Shown here: positions 26,773 to 45,462 of the stretch, piece after piece
How positions within the stretch are numbered: position 1 is the first letter of the stretch
Layout of the letters: each line of letters begins with the position of its first letter
Source: Chloroflexota bacterium
GTDB taxonomy: Bacteria; Chloroflexota; Anaerolineae; Aggregatilineales; Phototrophicaceae
DNA: 64,000 nt
Direction of reading: 5' to 3'
Assembly (NCBI GenBank): GCA_026707225.1
Contig: JAPOXG010000010.1
Coordinates: 62,001-126,000, forward strand
Notes under the pieces: generated by a model
Told to the model about the DNA's origin: nothing
Database searches by the model: none
What the model saw: only the letters and a program-made list of their open reading frames with translations
Translations under genes and position numbers: made by a program

Positions 26773-28059
26773 ATGCTGCCGCAGGATCTGCGCGACAAGC
26801 TCCATCACAACGCCGCCGTCAACATATTCGATGGCAGTCTCTTCGGCTTCGGCTTCATGGGCTTGGCATCTTATGTTACCATAATCCCGCTTTTTCTGTC
26901 CTTCCTCACCGAGTCGACCGCATTGATCGGCTTTGTCGCCACGCTCTTCCACATCGGCTGGCAACTGCCGCAATTGCTGACCTCCAGCTACGTCGCCAGC
27001 CTTCAGCGTTACAAGCCGATGGTCTTGGTGATGACCATGCTCGAGCGCGTACCCTACTTCGGGCTGGCGCTGCTGGCATTTATGATCCCGCGGATTGGTC
27101 TGGATGCCGCGCTCATTTTGACGCTGCTTCTACTGGGAGTGCAGTCTCTGGGCGGCGGATTCACGGCGACTGCCTGGCAAAGCATGATCAGCAAAATTAT
27201 GCCGCCGCACCGCCTCGGCGCATTCTTCGGCATCCAAGCGGCCTGCGTCAATCTCTTTGGCGCCGGTGGCGCATTGCTCGCCAGCGTCATCCTGCAACGG
27301 CTGGATTTTCCCGAGAGTTTTTCGCTGCTGTTCACGCTGGCCGGCATCAGCCTGCTGGTGTCTTTTGTGGGTTTGGCTTTGACCTATGAGCCGAAAAGTC
27401 ATCCGCGGAATGTGGCCGAGCCGATCAGGTGGCGTCAATTCGGTGGACGGCTGCGGCAGATTCTGCGCGAAGACGACAACTTTCGCTGGTTTCTCATCGC
27501 GCGGGGTTTAACGGCGGTGAGCCTGACCGCGATTTCCTTCTATACCATTTATGGCCTCAGGCGATTCGATATGTCGCCAGAATTCGTTGGTGTCTTGACC
27601 AGCGTTCTGCTGGTGTCGAATACCTTGAGCAGTTCGTTCATCGGTTGGATTGGCGATCGCTGGGGGCACCGGCGTGTATTGATAGCGGCCAATCTGCTGA
27701 CCGTGTTGGGGATCGGCATCGCCCTGCAGGCCAGCGATGTGAGCTGGTTCTATGCCGTCTTCGCTTTGACCGGCATCGTCAATTCGGCGCAATGGTCCAC
27801 GATCATGACCATAACCGTGCAGTTCGGCTCGGTGGCGGAACGCCCGTATTACATCGGGATGGCAAACTCTCTCATCGCGCCGGTGACGATTTTCGCGCCG
27901 ATCTTTGGCGGTTGGCTGGTCGACGCCGTTAACTTCGAACTCACATTCGGCATCTTCGCGCTGGCCGGCGTTCTTTCGGTATTGGTCTATGTCTTCCCGA
28001 TGGGCGATCCGCAAGAGTCATCGGTCGCGCGAAAGCGGCATGCCGCCGCCGCCGATTAG
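26773..28059 (+). CDS. MFS transporter
   Basis: 12-TM pattern; LTSVLLVSNTLSSSFIGWIGDRWGHRRVLIAANLLTVLGIG. Internal ATG 26773. Confidence 0.82.
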   Translation: MLPQDLRDKLHHNAAVNIFDGSLFGFGFMGLASYVTIIPLFLSFLTESTALIGFVATLFHIGWQLPQLLTSSYVASLQRYKPMVLVMTMLERVPYFGLALLAFMIPRIGLDAALILTLLLLGVQSLGGGFTATAWQSMISKIMPPHRLGAFFGIQAACVNLFGAGGALLASVILQRLDFPESFSLLFTLAGISLLVSFVGLALTYEPKSHPRNVAEPIRWRQFGGRLRQILREDDNFRWFLIARGLTAVSLTAISFYTIYGLRRFDMSPEFVGVLTSVLLVSNTLSSSFIGWIGDRWGHRRVLIAANLLTVLGIGIALQASDVSWFYAVFALTGIVNSAQWSTIMTITVQFGSVAERPYYIGMANSLIAPVTIFAPIFGGWLVDAVNFELTFGIFALAGVLSVLVYVFPMGDPQESSVARKRHAAAAD

Positions 28060-29207
28060 TCGTCGACCGGGAGCATCAATTTGCTGAGGATTCTGTCGAC
28101 GTCTTCCAAGGTAATCGGCCGTTCGTCCGCCATCAGTTTCACTTGAGCCGTAACCAGGTTGAGCACTTGGGTGGGCAGCCTGATGCCGCGGCCGGCGGCG
28201 TAATCTCGAATGGCGTTGCGTCCCACCAGGCGATGGGCGACATCAATGATGCGCGGCAGGCCAAAATCTTCTGGGTCAATCGCTTCATAGGTGGTCGGGT
28301 TTTTCAGTACGGCATTGGTATGAACGCCCGCCTTGTGATGAAATGCGACCTCGCCCGTGATAGGCGTGTTGTAAGGAATTTCGATGCCCAGCTTTTCCGC
28401 CACTACCCGTTCAATCTCGGGCAGCAGACATAGCTGGTACTTCTCCACCAACGATTTATCACAGGTGTAGAGCCGACCGACAAGGGCGCCCATTGGCGTA
28501 ATGCCGTTGCGCTCGCCGATGCCCAAGACGGTTGTGTCAATATGGGTCGCTCCCGCTTGCAAGGCGCAGAAAGCGTTGGCGACGGCGCAGCTGCTGTCAT
28601 TGTGGCCATGAAATTCGATATCGCAGCTAACCACGTCGCGCAGGTTGGATATGAGATTGTAGGTTTGCAGCGGATCGGCGATGCCCACCGTATCGGCGAC
28701 CCCGACGCGATCCACGCCCGCCAGATCCATCGCGCGATATACCGTCATGACATCGGCAAAATTGCTGCGGAAGGTATCCTCCGTGCTGAAGCGCGTTTCA
28801 ATGTTTTGCTGGTTCAGAAAGGCGATGACCTCTTGCCCGATATCAATGACCTGCTCGAGGCTCTTGCCGTGGCTGTATTCGCGCATATATTCAGAAGTTC
28901 CGATGTAGACGTCGGCGCCGTCAACGCCACAGTCGACCGCCAGTCTGGCATCATCCATATTGGCGCGAATATGCGTCAAGAGCTTAAAGCCGCGCGGCAT
29001 ATCAGCCAAGGCGCGGATGGCACCGGCGCTCTGCGGGCTGGCCACCGGCGTCGACAGTTCCATGTATTCCACGCCGAACTGATCCAAGAGCTGCGCGATT
29101 TCGCGCTTGTCGTCCAAGGTGAAATGCGTCCCGCGGAATTGCTCGCCTTCGCGCAGAGTGGAATCAATGAAATTAAACTCGGGTACCGGTATCTTGCGAT
29201 TGTGCAT
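28056..29207 (-). CDS. Homocitrate synthase (Thermus/Deinococcus-like)
   Basis: FNFIDSTLREGEQFRGTHFTLDDKREIAQLLDQFGVEYMELSTPVASPQS; CDIEFHGHNDSSCAVANAFCALQAGATHIDTTVLGIGERNGITPMGALVGRLY; KAGVHTNAVLKNPTTYEAIDPEDFG. Confidence 0.9.
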   Translation of the reverse strand: MHNRKIPVPEFNFIDSTLREGEQFRGTHFTLDDKREIAQLLDQFGVEYMELSTPVASPQSAGAIRALADMPRGFKLLTHIRANMDDARLAVDCGVDGADVYIGTSEYMREYSHGKSLEQVIDIGQEVIAFLNQQNIETRFSTEDTFRSNFADVMTVYRAMDLAGVDRVGVADTVGIADPLQTYNLISNLRDVVSCDIEFHGHNDSSCAVANAFCALQAGATHIDTTVLGIGERNGITPMGALVGRLYTCDKSLVEKYQLCLLPEIERVVAEKLGIEIPYNTPITGEVAFHHKAGVHTNAVLKNPTTYEAIDPEDFGLPRIIDVAHRLVGRNAIRDYAAGRGIRLPTQVLNLVTAQVKLMADERPITLEDVDRILSKLMLPVDD

Positions 29208-29224
29208 CGTTTGGCTGGCCTCAC

Positions 29225-30277
29225 TCAGACGGTCTCAAGGACTTGCGTTAAGACGTCGATCGCGCGCAGGTATTCGTCAAGGTCTATGTGCTCATCCGGC
29301 GTATGGTCCAGCGCGGAATCGCCCGGTCCATAAGCCACAATGGGGCAGCCCCAGCGCGGTCCGACGATGTTCATATCGGAAGTGCCAGTTTTGTACACGA
29401 AGCGCGGGACGCCGCCCTTGGCGCGAATCGCTCGCCGAAAATGACGGCTGAGCGCGCTATTCTTGTCGCCGCTGAAGGCGCATTCGGCGCCGCGCCCGGA
29501 AACAGTCGCGCCATCGCTCGCGGGAAATCGATGGCGGATTTCCTCAGGCTTGACATTGGGCGGCAGGCGTAAGCCCACGGTCATCTCAGCGACGCCGTTG
29601 ACGCCTTCCTGCCAGGTATTGATATCGCGAACCGAGGGGTCCAGCCTTGCATATAGCGACCCGATGCCGGCATTGAAATTATCGCAGTATGTTTTGATGC
29701 CCTGCCAATAATCCAAAGCGCGTTCCGCCGGGCTGGGCGCTTCCCCGGCGCTATGCGCGAGGCCGCCTTTCCAGCGCCAGTCGAGCAGGAGCCGCCCCTT
29801 GTAACCCAAAGTGATGCGATCCCACTGCGAGGGCTCGCCAATGACGCAGCATGTCGGCTGATATTGCGTCAAGGCATAGCGAGCGCCGCGACTGGTGGCC
29901 GCTTCTTCTTCAACTGCGCCGACGACGATGACTTGAACGTCTGCCGCTAGATTGGCTTTGGCGGCCGCCGCGGCGAATGCGCACAGCGGTCCCTTGGCGT
30001 CGACGGCGCCGCGTCCATAAAGTTGTCGCCCGTTCAGACGCACTGAGGGAAAGCCGGCAAAGGTATCGATATGCCCAAGCAAAACGATTTGGCGCTCACC
30101 AGCTCCGATGACGCCGACGGCGTTGCCAGCCTCATCAATGAAGGCGTCGTCATAACCATGACGCCGCATCCACGCGGTCAGGCAAGCCGCCGCCTCAGCT
30201 TCATGACAGGAGGGGCTGGGAATGGCGACCAAATCATGCAGCAGTTGCTCCGCGCCGCTATCGGAAACGTGGCTCAT
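29225..30277 (-). CDS. lysK: [LysW]-lysine hydrolase (M20 family)
   Basis: IVLLGHIDTFAGFPSVRLNGRQLYGRGAVDAKGPLCAFAAAAA, VGAVEEEAATSRGARYAL, C-terminal KTGTSDMNIVGPRWGCPIVAYGPGDSALDHTPDEHIDLDEYLRAIDVL. Confidence 0.88.
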   Translation of the reverse strand: MSHVSDSGAEQLLHDLVAIPSPSCHEAEAAACLTAWMRRHGYDDAFIDEAGNAVGVIGAGERQIVLLGHIDTFAGFPSVRLNGRQLYGRGAVDAKGPLCAFAAAAAKANLAADVQVIVVGAVEEEAATSRGARYALTQYQPTCCVIGEPSQWDRITLGYKGRLLLDWRWKGGLAHSAGEAPSPAERALDYWQGIKTYCDNFNAGIGSLYARLDPSVRDINTWQEGVNGVAEMTVGLRLPPNVKPEEIRHRFPASDGATVSGRGAECAFSGDKNSALSRHFRRAIRAKGGVPRFVYKTGTSDMNIVGPRWGCPIVAYGPGDSALDHTPDEHIDLDEYLRAIDVLTQVLETV

Positions 30278-30280
30278 CAG

Positions 30281-31447
30281 CTATCCCAGAACCGCATCTA
30301 TTGCGCCAGCAACAACAGAAAGCTGCTCGCGACTGATGATCAATGGCGGCAGCAAGCGCAGCGTATTCAGTCCGGCGGGCAGGGCGAGCACGCCTTGTTC
30401 CTGCAGCGCCTTCAGTATTGGTGTCACGCGTCCTCTCAACTCAAGGCCGATCATCAGTCCCCGGCCGCGCGCCTGGCGCACGCCGCGCAGGTTCAGCGAG
30501 GATAATTCTTCAATGAACCACTCGCCGTTGACCCGCGCCTGCTGGACCAAGCCCTCATCGCGTATCGCACCAACCGCGGCGAGAGCGGCGGCGCAAGCGA
30601 GCGGGTTGCCGCCGAATGTGCTGCCATGGGTGGCGCGGTCAATCGGTCCGTGAGCGTCGCGCCAGCAGACGGCGCCCATTGGCAGGCCGCCGGCGATCGC
30701 TTTGCCGATCGATATGATGTCAGGGACGATGCCGGCATGCTCGAAGCCAAACCATCTACCCGTTCGGCCGAAGCCAGTCTGTATCTCATCAATAATCAGC
30801 ATGGCGCCGGTTTGATCGCAGCGCTCGCGCAGCGCACCCAGGTATTCGTCATCGGCCGGGTGCACGCCGCCTTCGCCTTGGATCGCCTCGACGACGACAG
30901 CCGCCGTCGCTTCCGTGATCGCATTCCGCGCCGCTTCAATGTCGTTGAAGGCGACATAATCAACTGTTGGCAGCCACTCCTGAAAGGGCTTGCGGTATTT
31001 CTGCGTCCAGGTCAATGAGAGGGCGCCGGTGGTACGACCGTGGAAGGAACGCTTCGCCGCGACGATGCCATCGCGCCCTGTGAGCAGCTTGGCCACTTTC
31101 AGCGCGCCCTCGTTGGCTTCGGCGCCGCTGTTGCACAAGAAAAATCGCTTGAGATCCGCCGGCGTGATGCTTGCCAGCAGCTGATACAGCGCGGCGCGGC
31201 GATCGTTGTAGAAGGACTCGTGGCACGTGATCAGAGTCGCCGCCTGCTCGCCAATTGCATTGATAACGGCCGGATGGCAATGGCCCAGCGCCGCTACGCC
31301 TTGGCCGCTGGTCGCGTCCAGATAGCGATTGCCCAGCTGATCGTAGGCGTAGACACCCTCGCCGCGCACCAATGCCGTGGGTCGCTTGCCATAAGCGCCG
31401 GACCCGTGCCGATTCTCCAAATCGAAAAGAGTTGCAGTGTCCATCAT
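30281..31447 (-). CDS. lysJ: [LysW]-aminoadipate semialdehyde transaminase (ArgD-like class III)
   Basis: [125 protein letters not shown]. Position between lysZ and lysK. Confidence 0.9.
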
Positions 31448-32253
31448 AGGCTAAACCTCGTGCCAGCTCCGTCAAGCGCGCGCGACACCGGATTGGAAAC
31501 GCGCCCATCAGCAATGATGACGCGCTCGACATCCTGGGAGAGCGCCTCCCGCGCGGCAAGGACCTTTCGTTTCATGCGACCTTGCGCCCAATCCAGAGCC
31601 TCATCAATCTGCGCTAGCGTTACCTGATCGACTATGGAAGTTTCGTCGGGAAAACGGCGATACAGCCCGGCGACATTGCTCAAAATTACGAGCGTTTCCG
31701 CGTCCAGCGCGCCGGCCACAGCGGCGGCGGCGCGATCGCCATCGACATTGAGGGGACCATCGCCGCTAATCGCCATCGGCGGCAGAACCGGTGTCTTGGC
31801 CCTGTCCAGCGATTGCAGGATTTTCGCGCTATCAACGCCGACAATCGAACCGCTGTGATCATCACGGATCACGCGTACGCGTCCGTTCACAACCGCGCGT
31901 ATCGCTGTTTTGCGCCGGCCCTTCAGCGCCAGGTTGTCGCCCACGAATCCGACCGCGCTCAAGCCCCGCTCGCGCAATGCCGATACCAGCAGGTCATTGG
32001 CTGCTTCCGCGGCGCGGACGTAAATGTCGCGCACGGCCGGCGGCGTATAACGGGAGCTGTGGCCGGACGGTGATTGCAGCGATTGCACCTCGACGCCACT
32101 TTCCAGGCAGAGCTGATTCATGATGGCGCTGACGCCATGCACGACAGCGAGAGCGCGCCTCCCAGCAATCCTTGACAAATCGTCACAGGCGGCGGCAAGG
32201 TCCAAGCCTTCTCCGCCACCCAACTTAACCACCAAGAGTCTCGATGCGGTCAT
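31444..32253 (-). CDS. lysZ: [LysW]-aminoadipate kinase (ArgB-like)
   Basis: LLVVKLGGGEGLDLAAACDDLSRIAGRRALAVVHGVSAIMNQL...AAAAVAGALDAETLVILSNVAGLYRRFPDE...GRMKRKVLAAREAL; amino acid kinase fold within the lysW cluster. Confidence 0.88.
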   Translation of the reverse strand: MTASRLLVVKLGGGEGLDLAAACDDLSRIAGRRALAVVHGVSAIMNQLCLESGVEVQSLQSPSGHSSRYTPPAVRDIYVRAAEAANDLLVSALRERGLSAVGFVGDNLALKGRRKTAIRAVVNGRVRVIRDDHSGSIVGVDSAKILQSLDRAKTPVLPPMAISGDGPLNVDGDRAAAAVAGALDAETLVILSNVAGLYRRFPDETSIVDQVTLAQIDEALDWAQGRMKRKVLAAREALSQDVERVIIADGRVSNPVSRALDGAGTRFSL

Positions 32254-32267
32254 CGCCCCACTTCTCT

Positions 32268-33293
32268 CTACGGGTAGAAACCGGGAAACTCCAGCCCAGT
32301 CGTTTCATCCAGCTCATGCATCAGATTCATTGCTTGCACGGCGCTGCCGGCCGCGCCTTTGCCTAGATTGTCCAACGCTGCGATGACGACGAGGTGCGTC
32401 CCATCGTCGTCCAGCTCGAAGCCGATATCGCAGTAATTCGTTCCGGCGACCACGCGTGGTTCGGGCAGGCGATGCAAGCCCGCCTTGCCGCTCACCAGCC
32501 GCAAGAATGGCTCGTCTCGATAGCGCCCGCGATAAAGCCGCCAGATGTTGCGCTCGATTTTGGGCTCGCTCAGGTAGCAATGCGCCAGCAGATGAATGCC
32601 GCGCACCATCTCAATCGCAGTCACCGAGAAATGAAGCGGGATATCTTCGCCCAGCACGAGCTGCGCTTCCGCCAGGTGTCGATGTCCGGTGGCTTTGTAG
32701 CTGCGAACGGCGCCGCTGCGAATGGGATGATGCGAGCCGAGATTGCTCTTATTGCCGCCTTCCGATGAACCGACCTTGATCTCGCAGGCAGCGCGCTCGA
32801 GGATGCCCGCCTGGACCAGCGGCAGCAGCGCCAGATTCAACGCGGTCGCATTGCAGCCAACCCCGCTGACATAGCTTGCGCCAACAAGGGATTCTCGATT
32901 GACCTCGGGCAAGCCATAGACGAAGCGGACCAGCCAGCGCGGCGCCGGATGCGGCTCGCCATAATATTTCTCGTAAGTGGCGGCGCAATCGAGGCGGAAA
33001 TCGGCCGATAGGTCGAGCAGCTTGGGCGCTAGCCCGGCATAGCGCTCGATATTGCGGGCGGCGGTCCCGTGCGGCAGCGCCAGAAAAAGCAGGTCGCACT
33101 CATCCAACGCATCGGGATGAATGAACCTCAAGCTGGAGACGCCACGCAGGTTCGGATGCGCGGCATGCGCATAGCGTCCTGCCTGTTCGCGGCTGGTGAT
33201 CTGCGTCACTTCAACCTGTGGGTGAAAGTGCAGCAGTCGCAGCAGCTCGCCGCCGGTATAGCCGCTGCCGCCGACGATGCCCGCGCGAATCAC
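32268..33293 (-). CDS. lysY: [LysW]-aminoadipate 6-phosphate reductase (ArgC-like)
   Basis: MIRAGIVGGSGYTGGELLRLLHFHPQVEVTQITSREQAGRYAHAAHPNLRG, ASYVSGVGCNATALNLALLPL, SEGGNKSNLGSHHPIRSGAVRSYKATGHRHLAEAQ. Confidence 0.92.
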   Translation of the reverse strand: MIRAGIVGGSGYTGGELLRLLHFHPQVEVTQITSREQAGRYAHAAHPNLRGVSSLRFIHPDALDECDLLFLALPHGTAARNIERYAGLAPKLLDLSADFRLDCAATYEKYYGEPHPAPRWLVRFVYGLPEVNRESLVGASYVSGVGCNATALNLALLPLVQAGILERAACEIKVGSSEGGNKSNLGSHHPIRSGAVRSYKATGHRHLAEAQLVLGEDIPLHFSVTAIEMVRGIHLLAHCYLSEPKIERNIWRLYRGRYRDEPFLRLVSGKAGLHRLPEPRVVAGTNYCDIGFELDDDGTHLVVIAALDNLGKGAAGSAVQAMNLMHELDETTGLEFPGFYP

Positions 33294-34168
33294 GCGACCA
33301 CTCCAATCTGGCCGATGACGAAGTCAATGACCTCCTGCGCGATATCGACGCCGGTTGGTTTGCTGCTGTTGCGGAATTCCATCGTGTGGTTGATCTCGTT
33401 GACTACGAAGTCGCCTCCCGCGTCTTCCAGCAGATCGACCGCCAATATGCCGCCGCCGACGGCCTGCGCCGCGCGCACGCAAATATCGTCAAGGGCGTCG
33501 GTCACCAGGCAATTCGTGGCCAATCCGCCGCGGGCTGTATTGGTGATCCAGTGATTGGATTCGCGGTAGATCGCCGCGATGGTGCGATCGCCGACGACAA
33601 AGGCGCGGATGTCGCGTCCCGGCTTGTCGACATATTCCTGCACGTAATAAGTGTGGTGGTTGTAATCGCCCAGCGTCTGCCGGTGTTCGAGGATGGCTTC
33701 GGCGCTATCTCGATTGTGGACGCGCGCCAGCAGCCGCCCCCAGGAACCGGTCACCGGTTTCAGCACCGCTGGATACTTGACGTCTTCAATCGCCTGCATC
33801 GCGCTCTCTGGCGTGAAGGCGACGCGCGTATGCGGCTGCGGAATGTTATGTTTCATCAAGGCGACGCTCGTTCGCAGCTTGTCGCTGCAGGCGGCTGCTG
33901 TTTCATAGGTGTTAAAGGTCTGGACGCCCCAGCTGTTGAGAATTGCCAGCGCGTACATTCCGCGCGATGTGCTGACGCAGCGTTCAAATATCAAATCGTA
34001 TTCGCGCCAGGCGATGCCCGAAGGCGCCAACTGCCCGGCGCCTTGCGTGATTTCAATGTTTAGTTCGCGATCGAGAATAATGTCCGGACTGATTTCGCGT
34101 TTGTTGAAGGCGGCCAGTATCAGCTTTTCTTCGGCTCGAATATGCGTGACCAGCAGGGCGACGCGCAT
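33290..34168 (-). CDS. lysX: Alpha-aminoadipate--LysW ligase (ATP-grasp)
   Basis: MRVALLVTHIRAEEKLILAAFNKREI...ESNHWITNTARGGLATNCLVTDALDDICVRAAQAVGGGILAVDLLEDAGGDFVVNEINHTMEFRNSSKPTGVDIAQEVIDF, closely resembling Thermus LysX as I recall it. Confidence 0.93.
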   Translation of the reverse strand: MRVALLVTHIRAEEKLILAAFNKREISPDIILDRELNIEITQGAGQLAPSGIAWREYDLIFERCVSTSRGMYALAILNSWGVQTFNTYETAAACSDKLRTSVALMKHNIPQPHTRVAFTPESAMQAIEDVKYPAVLKPVTGSWGRLLARVHNRDSAEAILEHRQTLGDYNHHTYYVQEYVDKPGRDIRAFVVGDRTIAAIYRESNHWITNTARGGLATNCLVTDALDDICVRAAQAVGGGILAVDLLEDAGGDFVVNEINHTMEFRNSSKPTGVDIAQEVIDFVIGQIGVVA

Positions 34169-34173
34169 GTGAT

Positions 34174-34350
34174 CTACTCTCCCCAGTCTTCTTCCACTTC
34201 GGGCGCCAATTCCAGCTCCATCGGGTCGAGGTTCATGATCTCAAGTTCCGTGCCGCACTCCGGGCAGGACACCAGCTCGTTCTCCATCGCGTCGGATGGA
34301 ATATCGACCTCGCCTTCGCATTCGGGGCAGAGCGGACTTCCACTGCTCAT
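34174..34350 (-). CDS. lysW: Amino-group carrier protein LysW
   Basis: MSSGSPLCPECEGEVDIPSDAMENELVSCPECGTELEIMNLDPMELELAPEVEEDWGE: two CPEC zinc pairs and the canonical C-terminal EDWGE. ATG 34350 preceded by GAGGAG. Confidence 0.96.
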   Translation of the reverse strand: MSSGSPLCPECEGEVDIPSDAMENELVSCPECGTELEIMNLDPMELELAPEVEEDWGE

Positions 34351-34381: not shown

Positions 34382-34405
34382 AAAAAACCCGCCTTATGGG
34401 CGGGT
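34382..34405 (-). terminator. Intrinsic terminator (attenuator) in the lysW operon leader
   Basis: On the minus strand: ACCCGCC-CATAA-GGCGGGT followed by TTTTT; perfect 7-bp GC-rich stem, 5-nt loop, 6-T tract; ends about 31 nt before lysW ATG and upstream of its SD (34359-34364). Confidence 0.88.
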
Positions 34406-34445
34406 GTGTGTATTAGGTCTTTTAACAGCACAAACGAGCCCATTT

Positions 34446-34505
34446 TCAGTGGGTGTCGGTCTTCTTCACCTTCTTGCTTTCGATTGCACTGCCTGTCGCG
34501 CTCAT
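34446..34505 (-). CDS. Lysine-rich leader peptide ORF (MSATGSAIESKKVKKTDTH)
   Basis: Minus strand ATGAGCGCGACAGGCAGTGCAATCGAAAGCAAGAAGGTGAAGAAGACCGACACCCACTGA: 19 codons plus stop. Lys codons AAG AAG GTG AAG AAG at 34461-34475. An upstream in-frame ATG at 34544 would give 32 aa. Below the ORF-track length cut-off. Confidence 0.75.
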   Translation of the reverse strand: MSATGSAIESKKVKKTDTH

Positions 34506-34569
34506 CTCGTCTTGCCATGCTATTTTGGCTCGATTCAAGCGCATACTATATCGCTGGCATCGACAATTA

Positions 34570-34597
34570 ACTATAATCAAATTGTACGAAATTGCAA
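34570..34597 (-). promoter_or_regulatory. Candidate sigma70-type promoter of the lysine operon
   Basis: Minus strand TTGCAA (34597-34592), 16-bp spacer, TATAGT (34575-34570). Confidence 0.55.
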
Positions 34598-34618: not shown

Positions 34619-35485
34619 CTATGTGCCGACTTGTTCCAGCGTTTCATGTAAGGGCTGCAGGAATCTTGCGCCGAAGATGACAAGATGTATCAGCAGCGGA
34701 TAAAGATTGTAAATGTGACGTCTCGTGCGGAAGAAGTCGTCCTCAATCACAATCTGATCGGTATAGGCATTGAAGAATTCGGGACCCGTGCCATTGAAAA
34801 GCGTCATATACGCCAGTTCCATCTCATTGTGCCCATAATAGAGCGCTGGATCGATGATTCCCGCCACCCGACCGTCCCGTACGATCACATTTGTTTTCCA
34901 CATGTCGCCGTGAATCAATGCGGGCTTGGCCGGTTCAAAGAGATACCGTTCCAGCTGATCGGCGAGGCGCAGGAGCCGCCGCTCAAGCTCGGCGGGAAGC
35001 TCGCCCGATTCGCGCGCGACGCCGATCATGTAGAGCAGCCGCTGCTCGCGAAAGAAGGCGATCCATGAGGGCATTTGCGGATTCGGCTGATGCAATGGTC
35101 CAATCAGCGTGTCGCGTTCGAGGCCGTAGGCCGGGCTCGTCACTTGATGGCATCTGGCCAATAGCTCACCGAGATGGCGCAGGGCGTCGCCTTCCCACTC
35201 AATACGACCTTCTACGAATTCCATCAACAGCAAGTTTGCATTCGCATATAGCACCGCCGGCGCCGGCAAACCCGAATGCTGGCGCAGGTAACGCAGCATA
35301 TAGGCTTCAATCGTCAGATCGTGGCCGCCATCGCCGACTTTGGCGACGATCGATTCGCCGTCCGCCAGCTCGACCCGCAGCACCTGGCTGATCATGCCGC
35401 CCGAAAGCGGCTGCCAGGAGTGAAACCGCCGTTGAAGCGCCCGTTCAATACAGGATTGAACCTCGCTGTCGTTGACGCGGTCCAT
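34619..35485 (-). CDS. Fructosamine/ketosamine-3-kinase family protein
   Basis: PLSGGMISQVLRVELADGESIVAKVGDG, LIHGDMWKTNVIVRDGRVAGIIDPALYYGHNEMELAYMTLFNGTGPEFFNAY. Confidence 0.85.
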   Translation of the reverse strand: MDRVNDSEVQSCIERALQRRFHSWQPLSGGMISQVLRVELADGESIVAKVGDGGHDLTIEAYMLRYLRQHSGLPAPAVLYANANLLLMEFVEGRIEWEGDALRHLGELLARCHQVTSPAYGLERDTLIGPLHQPNPQMPSWIAFFREQRLLYMIGVARESGELPAELERRLLRLADQLERYLFEPAKPALIHGDMWKTNVIVRDGRVAGIIDPALYYGHNEMELAYMTLFNGTGPEFFNAYTDQIVIEDDFFRTRRHIYNLYPLLIHLVIFGARFLQPLHETLEQVGT

Positions 35486-44719: not shown

Positions 44720-45462
44720 CCCAAGGCGCCGGCTTGCAAGAATTCCAGACGATCAACGCGGGCGTTTTCAACATCGCGATAGAAGCCCCGCAAATGCGCG
44801 TAATCATCGGGAATGGTCAAAGCCAGTTGGTGCATGGACTGCGTCGTCATTTCCGACAGTTCCGTCCGCGGGATGCGCCGCCGCCCCTCGGCTCGGAGGC
44901 GAAATGGCGCGCCAAAGACCACTTTCGCGTAGGCTCGACGGAAGCGCTTCAGACGCCCCCGCCAGTCTTCGGCGCCGCATATCGCCGCCGGCACGATCAC
45001 GGCATCGGCTTTCGTCGCGACGTAAGCCATGCCTTCCTTGGCCCGCTGCATCCCCCCGGGATGGCGCGTGCCTTCCGGCGCCATGAGTACGAGTTGTCCG
45101 CTCTTTAACAGCTCAATCGTCTGCATCAGCGCTTTGCGATCATATTCGCCGCGATGGATGGGGTAGTGTCCCCATTGGCGCAGAAACCAGCCAGCGACAG
45201 GAATGCTGAAGTTCTCTACTTTGGATAGCGAGATGGTGTGGCGATAGGGGATGCTGACGGTCACGACGATAGGATCGAGGTATGACACATGATTGATCAT
45301 GAGGCAGGTTCGGCCATGCCGCGGGACGTTCTCAAGCCCGGAAACCTCAACTTTGCAGAAGGACGGCACGATGGCGCGCAGGAGCGGATGTATGATGCGC
45401 CGCGCCCGGTCGTATTGGGGCTGACGGGCGATGTATTCTTCGATGCTCAATTCATGGGACAT
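44716..45462 (-). CDS. 1-acyl-sn-glycerol-3-phosphate acyltransferase family (PlsC-like)
   Basis: RTCLMINHVSYLDPIVVTV (NHxSxxD) and LMAPEGTRHPGGMQRAKEGMAYVA. Confidence 0.87.
   Translation of the reverse strand: MSHELSIEEYIARQPQYDRARRIIHPLLRAIVPSFCKVEVSGLENVPRHGRTCLMINHVSYLDPIVVTVSIPYRHTISLSKVENFSIPVAGWFLRQWGHYPIHRGEYDRKALMQTIELLKSGQLVLMAPEGTRHPGGMQRAKEGMAYVATKADAVIVPAAICGAEDWRGRLKRFRRAYAKVVFGAPFRLRAEGRRRIPRTELSEMTTQSMHQLALTIPDDYAHLRGFYRDVENARVDRLEFLQAGALG

Follow-up and report, generated by a model that had tools for sequence, protein, structure and literature searches.

The window analysed here is a 64,000-nucleotide stretch from a member of the Chloroflexota whose relatives are Aggregatilineales-type metagenome assemblies of the class Anaerolineae. 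Its minus strand carries an operon for lysine synthesis of the aminoadipate type, preceded by a short reading frame rich in Lys codons and by an intrinsic terminator. In the order of transcription, the features are:

34570..34597, minus strand: promoter proposed in an earlier note on this DNA, TTGCAA-N16-TATAGT (TTGCAA 34597-34592, TATAGT 34575-34570)
34545..34550, minus strand: second -10-like box, TATAGT, the better-conserved candidate
34446..34505, minus strand: leader peptide ORF, MSATGSAIESKKVKKTDTH and a TGA stop (ATG 34505, TGA 34448-34446, 19 codons)
34461..34475, minus strand: control codons AAG AAG GTG AAG AAG (Lys-Lys-Val-Lys-Lys)
34450..34453, minus strand: segment 1, CCCA, within the last leader codons and able to pair with UGGG
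34438..34443, minus strand: segment 2, AUGGGC, the 5' arm of the putative antiterminator, extended by UGUG at 34432-34429
34396..34408, minus strand: segment 3, the 3' arm of the putative antiterminator, CACA (34408-34405) and GCCCAU (34401-34396)
34382..34405, minus strand: intrinsic terminator ACCCGCC-CATAA-GGCGGGT followed by a U-run (stem-loop 34405-34387)
34177..34350, minus strand: lysW (58 aa), first gene of the operon (ATG 34350, Shine-Dalgarno sequence GAGGAGA 34364-34358)
28056..34168, minus strand: the rest of the operon, lysX, lysY (argC-type), lysZ, lysJ, lysK and homocitrate synthase

The promoter pair, the ORF, CCCA, TGGGC, GCCCA, TGTG/CACA and the terminator are all present where the earlier note had placed them on the minus strand; the start of lysW, which it put some 20-30 nt further on, begins with a Shine-Dalgarno sequence 18 nt past the end of the U-run and an ATG 32 nt past it. 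The leader ATG itself has no strong Shine-Dalgarno sequence. Segment 3 overlaps both the 5' arm and the loop of the terminator, whose stem is a perfect 7 bp, 6 of them GC, with the U-run extending to 34382. The lysW product matches NF041070 (LysW/ArgW carrier) at E 1.1e-19 and TIGR01206 at E 4.8e-14, both slightly below the curated cut-offs. The leader upstream of lysW is the sole Lys-cluster leader with a terminator in the whole window. An ORF rich in Arg (MMLPAPAQRRGLRLRSRRTRLIALNS) and a terminator-like hairpin overlap at 45461 on the plus strand; nothing nearby is evidently an amino acid gene, and the pair was set aside as probably due to chance.

The promoter is the least secure element of the earlier proposal. 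The sequence TTGCAA-N16-TATAGT is present, but its TATAGT is exact in only 10 of the 34 sampled genomes of the genus, whereas the box at 34550-34545, 25 nt downstream, reads TANANT in all 34; transcription may therefore start near 34538, and the predicted leader RNA would be about 155 or about 185 nt long, according to the start site used. The leader ATG lies downstream of both candidate starts, which makes the attenuator model independent of this choice. The second box is possibly the true promoter or an operator, and it is conceivable that the operon is controlled mainly there, by a regulator binding the box and the inverted repeat around it, with the attenuator in a secondary role. Such control is suggested by the conservation of the box and by a significant repeat in 6 of the 34 genomes, yet the repeat is absent from most of the genus, in which the attenuator is universal, and this explanation seems very unlikely. 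As a conserved operator, the repeat was rejected on the same count of merely 6 in 34. Its sequences include CTCGATACAAGCG/CGCTTGTATCGAG in L028 and CAACATCG/CGATGTTG in L021.

The short ORF and its Lys codons, on whose conservation beside lysW the earlier note had made its reading depend, are kept together with lysW in all 34 sampled genomes of the genus. In every one of them the frame is the same and 10 codons lead from the first Lys to the stop; this stop, always at the same position, is TGA in 14, TAA in 13 and TAG in 7. Lys is retained at 135 of 136 control positions, with exchanges between AAG and AAA; the middle codon of KKxKK encodes Ala or Val, its third base being free to vary, and pairwise differences within the KKxKK codons number 0, 297 and 684 at the first, second and third codon positions. 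Two bases that form part of segment 1, base 3 of the Thr codon and base 1 of the codon after it, are nearly fixed across the genus, while third bases elsewhere are not. An arginine reading in the +1 frame (ARRxRRP) was discarded: this frame contains a stop in the window and in the other GTG-type members.

The pairings are conserved as well. The terminator, which the earlier note had proposed to follow through related genomes, is intact throughout the genus, with 100% of cells paired. For the antiterminator the figure is 90.7%, with a covariation score above that of all 500 shuffles, and for the putative protector helix between segments 1 and 2, weak and hardly varying at 4 bp and -3.9 kcal/mol, it is 99.3%. 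A covariance model of the element (R1) has exactly one match in each of the 34 genomes, and one further match in a sister genus; a wider regulon was accordingly rejected for these 34 genomes.

The terminator might be thought merely to end the APH-like kinase gene upstream (34619-35485), with the short ORF incidental. In 33 of the 34 genus members that gene does lie upstream and point the same way, so the terminator could also serve it; taken as the whole explanation, this would leave unaccounted for the in-frame Lys codons with their synonymous changes, the three interchangeable stops and the covarying antiterminators, besides locus L029, which keeps the leader without an APH-like gene, and is extremely improbable.

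Folding with and without a masking ribosome, as the earlier note had suggested, gave the switch that it predicted. With the ribosome on the third Lys codon, constrained folding assigns the antiterminator a probability of 0.96; with the ribosome near the stop codon or ORF end, the terminator has 0.97 (the positions used for the His and stop codons were one base off the true codons, leaving the masking of segment 2 unaffected). Before the 3' arm of the terminator has been transcribed, the antiterminator stands at 0.99 in the stalled states and at 0 with the ribosome at the stop. The antiterminator, at -15.7 kcal/mol, is stronger than the terminator, at -12.7 kcal/mol. At equilibrium, a ribosome placed on the last Lys codon nevertheless favours the terminator (0.67 vs 0.31), so the model needs an antiterminator formed during transcription: order matters.

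The leader in the window is very probably a ribosome-mediated transcription attenuator sensing charged lysyl-tRNA and controlling the LysW (aminoadipate) lysine operon, to judge from its sequence. When lysine is scarce, a ribosome would stall on the Lys-Lys-Val-Lys-Lys codons and cover segment 1; segment 2 (AUGGGC...UGUG) would then be free to join segment 3 (CACA...GCCCAU) while the terminator still lacked its 3' arm, and with this antiterminator formed, polymerase would read through into the lysW operon. When lysine is plentiful, the ribosome would get as far as the stop codon, a few bases ahead of segment 2, and cover that segment, allowing the terminator to form. Translation of the leader ORF, ribosome stalling, premature termination and the response to lysine are what we infer from this arrangement. 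The four-segment reading of the trp/his type put forward in the earlier note gains support from conservation in 34 of 34 genomes, covariation, the intact terminator and constrained folding.

Beyond the genus, a strict detector was applied, which requires an ORF starting with ATG, a run of 6 residues in it with 4 or more Lys, and a terminator within 70 nt. Among 166 distinct upstream regions of lysW, mostly from Anaerolineae, it finds a Lys-cluster leader with a terminator in 69; the same detector set for each other amino acid gives 0-3 matches in these regions, and the Lys detector gives none in 944,576 strand-bases of flanking background DNA. In the window, pairing between the segment that follows the stop and the terminator region exceeds that in 99.5% of dinucleotide shuffles (p 0.005), and p <= 0.05 is reached in 61 of 111 distinct units. 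The antiterminator covaries within the class, as the earlier note's reading would have it: across 26 distal units from many genera (those farther from lysW where there are two, see below), its helix is 87.0% paired, vs 20-51% for slid versions, 17 cells are changed on both sides vs 5.1 in shuffles, and one pair occurs as CG, GC, UA and AU, all four Watson-Crick types. Sampled loci of other Chloroflexota classes, including Oscillochloris and Herpetosiphon, have no Lys leader with a terminator before lysW. The unit is also missing in many Anaerolineae families, so this attenuator is widespread, not universal.

The variety within the class bears on how the leader might act. One alternative is that the leader peptide acts through its amino acids: lysine or a pathway intermediate, and not a shortage of charged tRNA-Lys, would cause the polybasic nascent chain to stall in the exit tunnel. 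Within the genus KK-[AV]-KK is indeed conserved as a peptide, its middle residue held to Ala or Val. Elsewhere in the class, however, spacing and neighbours vary freely (KKKQSKK, KSKK, KRAKSKK, KKRKTKK) without loss of the richness in lysine. Such a pattern is what codon sensing predicts, and it makes stalling by the nascent chain quite improbable. A second alternative, that the leader RNA is a riboswitch binding lysine directly, would suit an operon that makes lysine: the lysine riboswitch (L-box, RF00168) controls lysine genes in other bacteria by premature termination. Conservation is instead concentrated in the codons, the antiterminator and the terminator; the L-box covariance model matches none of 41 relatives' genomes, although it does detect the positive controls, and no Rfam family, L-box included, reaches its gathering score in the window. 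On these last two results a lysine riboswitch was ruled out, and direct binding of lysine by the leader has a vanishingly small likelihood. The best weak Rfam match of the leader is Trp_leader, far below cut-off.

The sampled lysW loci show some further peculiarities. At L164, L172 and L195, from other Anaerolineae families, Arg- or Arg/Lys-rich short ORFs (e.g. MTSFGKRSSRLIRSKRSRC..., MSLELRVRKDRRPF...) precede a terminator upstream of lysW; perhaps these leaders sense arginine where LysW also serves arginine synthesis. A tRNA-Lys-like gene (CTT anticodon) lies directly upstream of lysW at L118 and L121. Two or three tandem lysW genes occur in one family of another Chloroflexota class (G394:C141:6462-7000, also G424, G452 and G466). 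The LysX of L075, a record titled Pleurocapsa minor (Cyanobacteria), is identical to that of L152, from Chloroflexota of the same family, so the L075 contig looks mislabelled.

Many relatives have two Lys-rich leader and intrinsic terminator units in series before lysW. At least 26 distinct loci have this arrangement, with further ones found by eye:

Tandem loci upstream of lysW, part 1: L014, L031, L043-L046, L058, L059, L061, L063, L064, L067, L073-L075
Tandem loci upstream of lysW, part 2: L086, L095, L097, L099, L122, L123, L129, L141, L158, L159, L183

Such series would likewise be unexplained if the terminator merely ended the APH-like gene. The distal unit resembles that of the window, with KKAKK and about 40-55 nt from stop to terminator; in the proximal one this distance is about 25 nt, and the leader peptide typically has SKKxxSKKPDxRSG* at its end. 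When the antiterminator is compared with shuffled sequence, most distal units give a strong result and most proximal ones a weak one (p > 0.05), which makes the proximal switch less certain than the proximal leader and terminator.

The window itself has one attenuator unit, while L014, of the same genus, has two. In the LysX tree, L014 is sister to the other 33 genus members, and L067, the lineage that branches next, carries two units as well; the single unit of the window is thus most simply explained by loss of the proximal one. It is likely, then, that the window leader is a reduced form of an ancestral Anaerolineae device, two serial lysine-codon attenuators before lysW, in which one tRNA would be tested twice, the chances of passing each test multiplying to give that of readthrough. 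If so, serial attenuators would sharpen the response to lysine and lower leakage.

Classical ribosome-mediated transcription attenuators are known from the trp, his, leu and thr operons of E. coli, and at the level of sequence the window leader has most of their defining features. It comprises a conserved Lys-codon ORF, an intrinsic terminator between this ORF and the first gene, and an antiterminator that excludes the terminator and whose 5' arm a ribosome at the stop codon could reach; the genes that follow, lysWXYZJK and homocitrate synthase, make the amino acid that would be sensed. What can be read directly from the genomes is the ORF with its codons, the mutually exclusive hairpins, the way these elements are conserved and covary, and the linkage to lysine genes. 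Taken as such, the leader appears a real attenuator of ordinary mechanism, and it is the serial variant in relatives that is unusual. Leader-peptide attenuation would thereby reach the LysW lysine pathway in a class whose members are mostly uncultured, and dozens of genomes gain a regulatory rule along with a leader gene missing from the annotation. Natural serial attenuators for one amino acid would also offer a direct way to test why one signal should be checked a second time, and how one check is lost.

As in these attenuators of E. coli and the trp attenuators of actinobacteria, a leader peptide rich in the regulated amino acid, and an antiterminator competing with an intrinsic terminator, stand directly before the biosynthetic operon; unlike in these, lysine is the amino acid sensed, the host belongs to the Chloroflexota, and relatives have two units in series. 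With the lysine riboswitch the system shares its target, lysine genes, and premature termination, although the L-box is absent from the 41 relatives. In Thermus thermophilus, of a different phylum, the lysine gene cluster, also of the aminoadipate type, is reportedly controlled by leader-peptide attenuation, as proposed here. In a survey of actinobacteria, no conserved RNA regulatory structure was found before lysine operons (PMC1262725). The Salmonella mgtCBR leader, which its authors regard as a singular case of tandem attenuators answering to different signals, has two attenuators that respond to ATP and proline, without intrinsic terminators (PMC3641672); a leader-peptide tandem reading one same signal was not found in the literature searched. 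The Anaerolineae tandems resemble mgtCBR in that a single leader RNA holds a pair of leader ORFs and would undergo a pair of attenuation steps, and differ from it in that each of the two units has lysine codons and an intrinsic terminator at its end.
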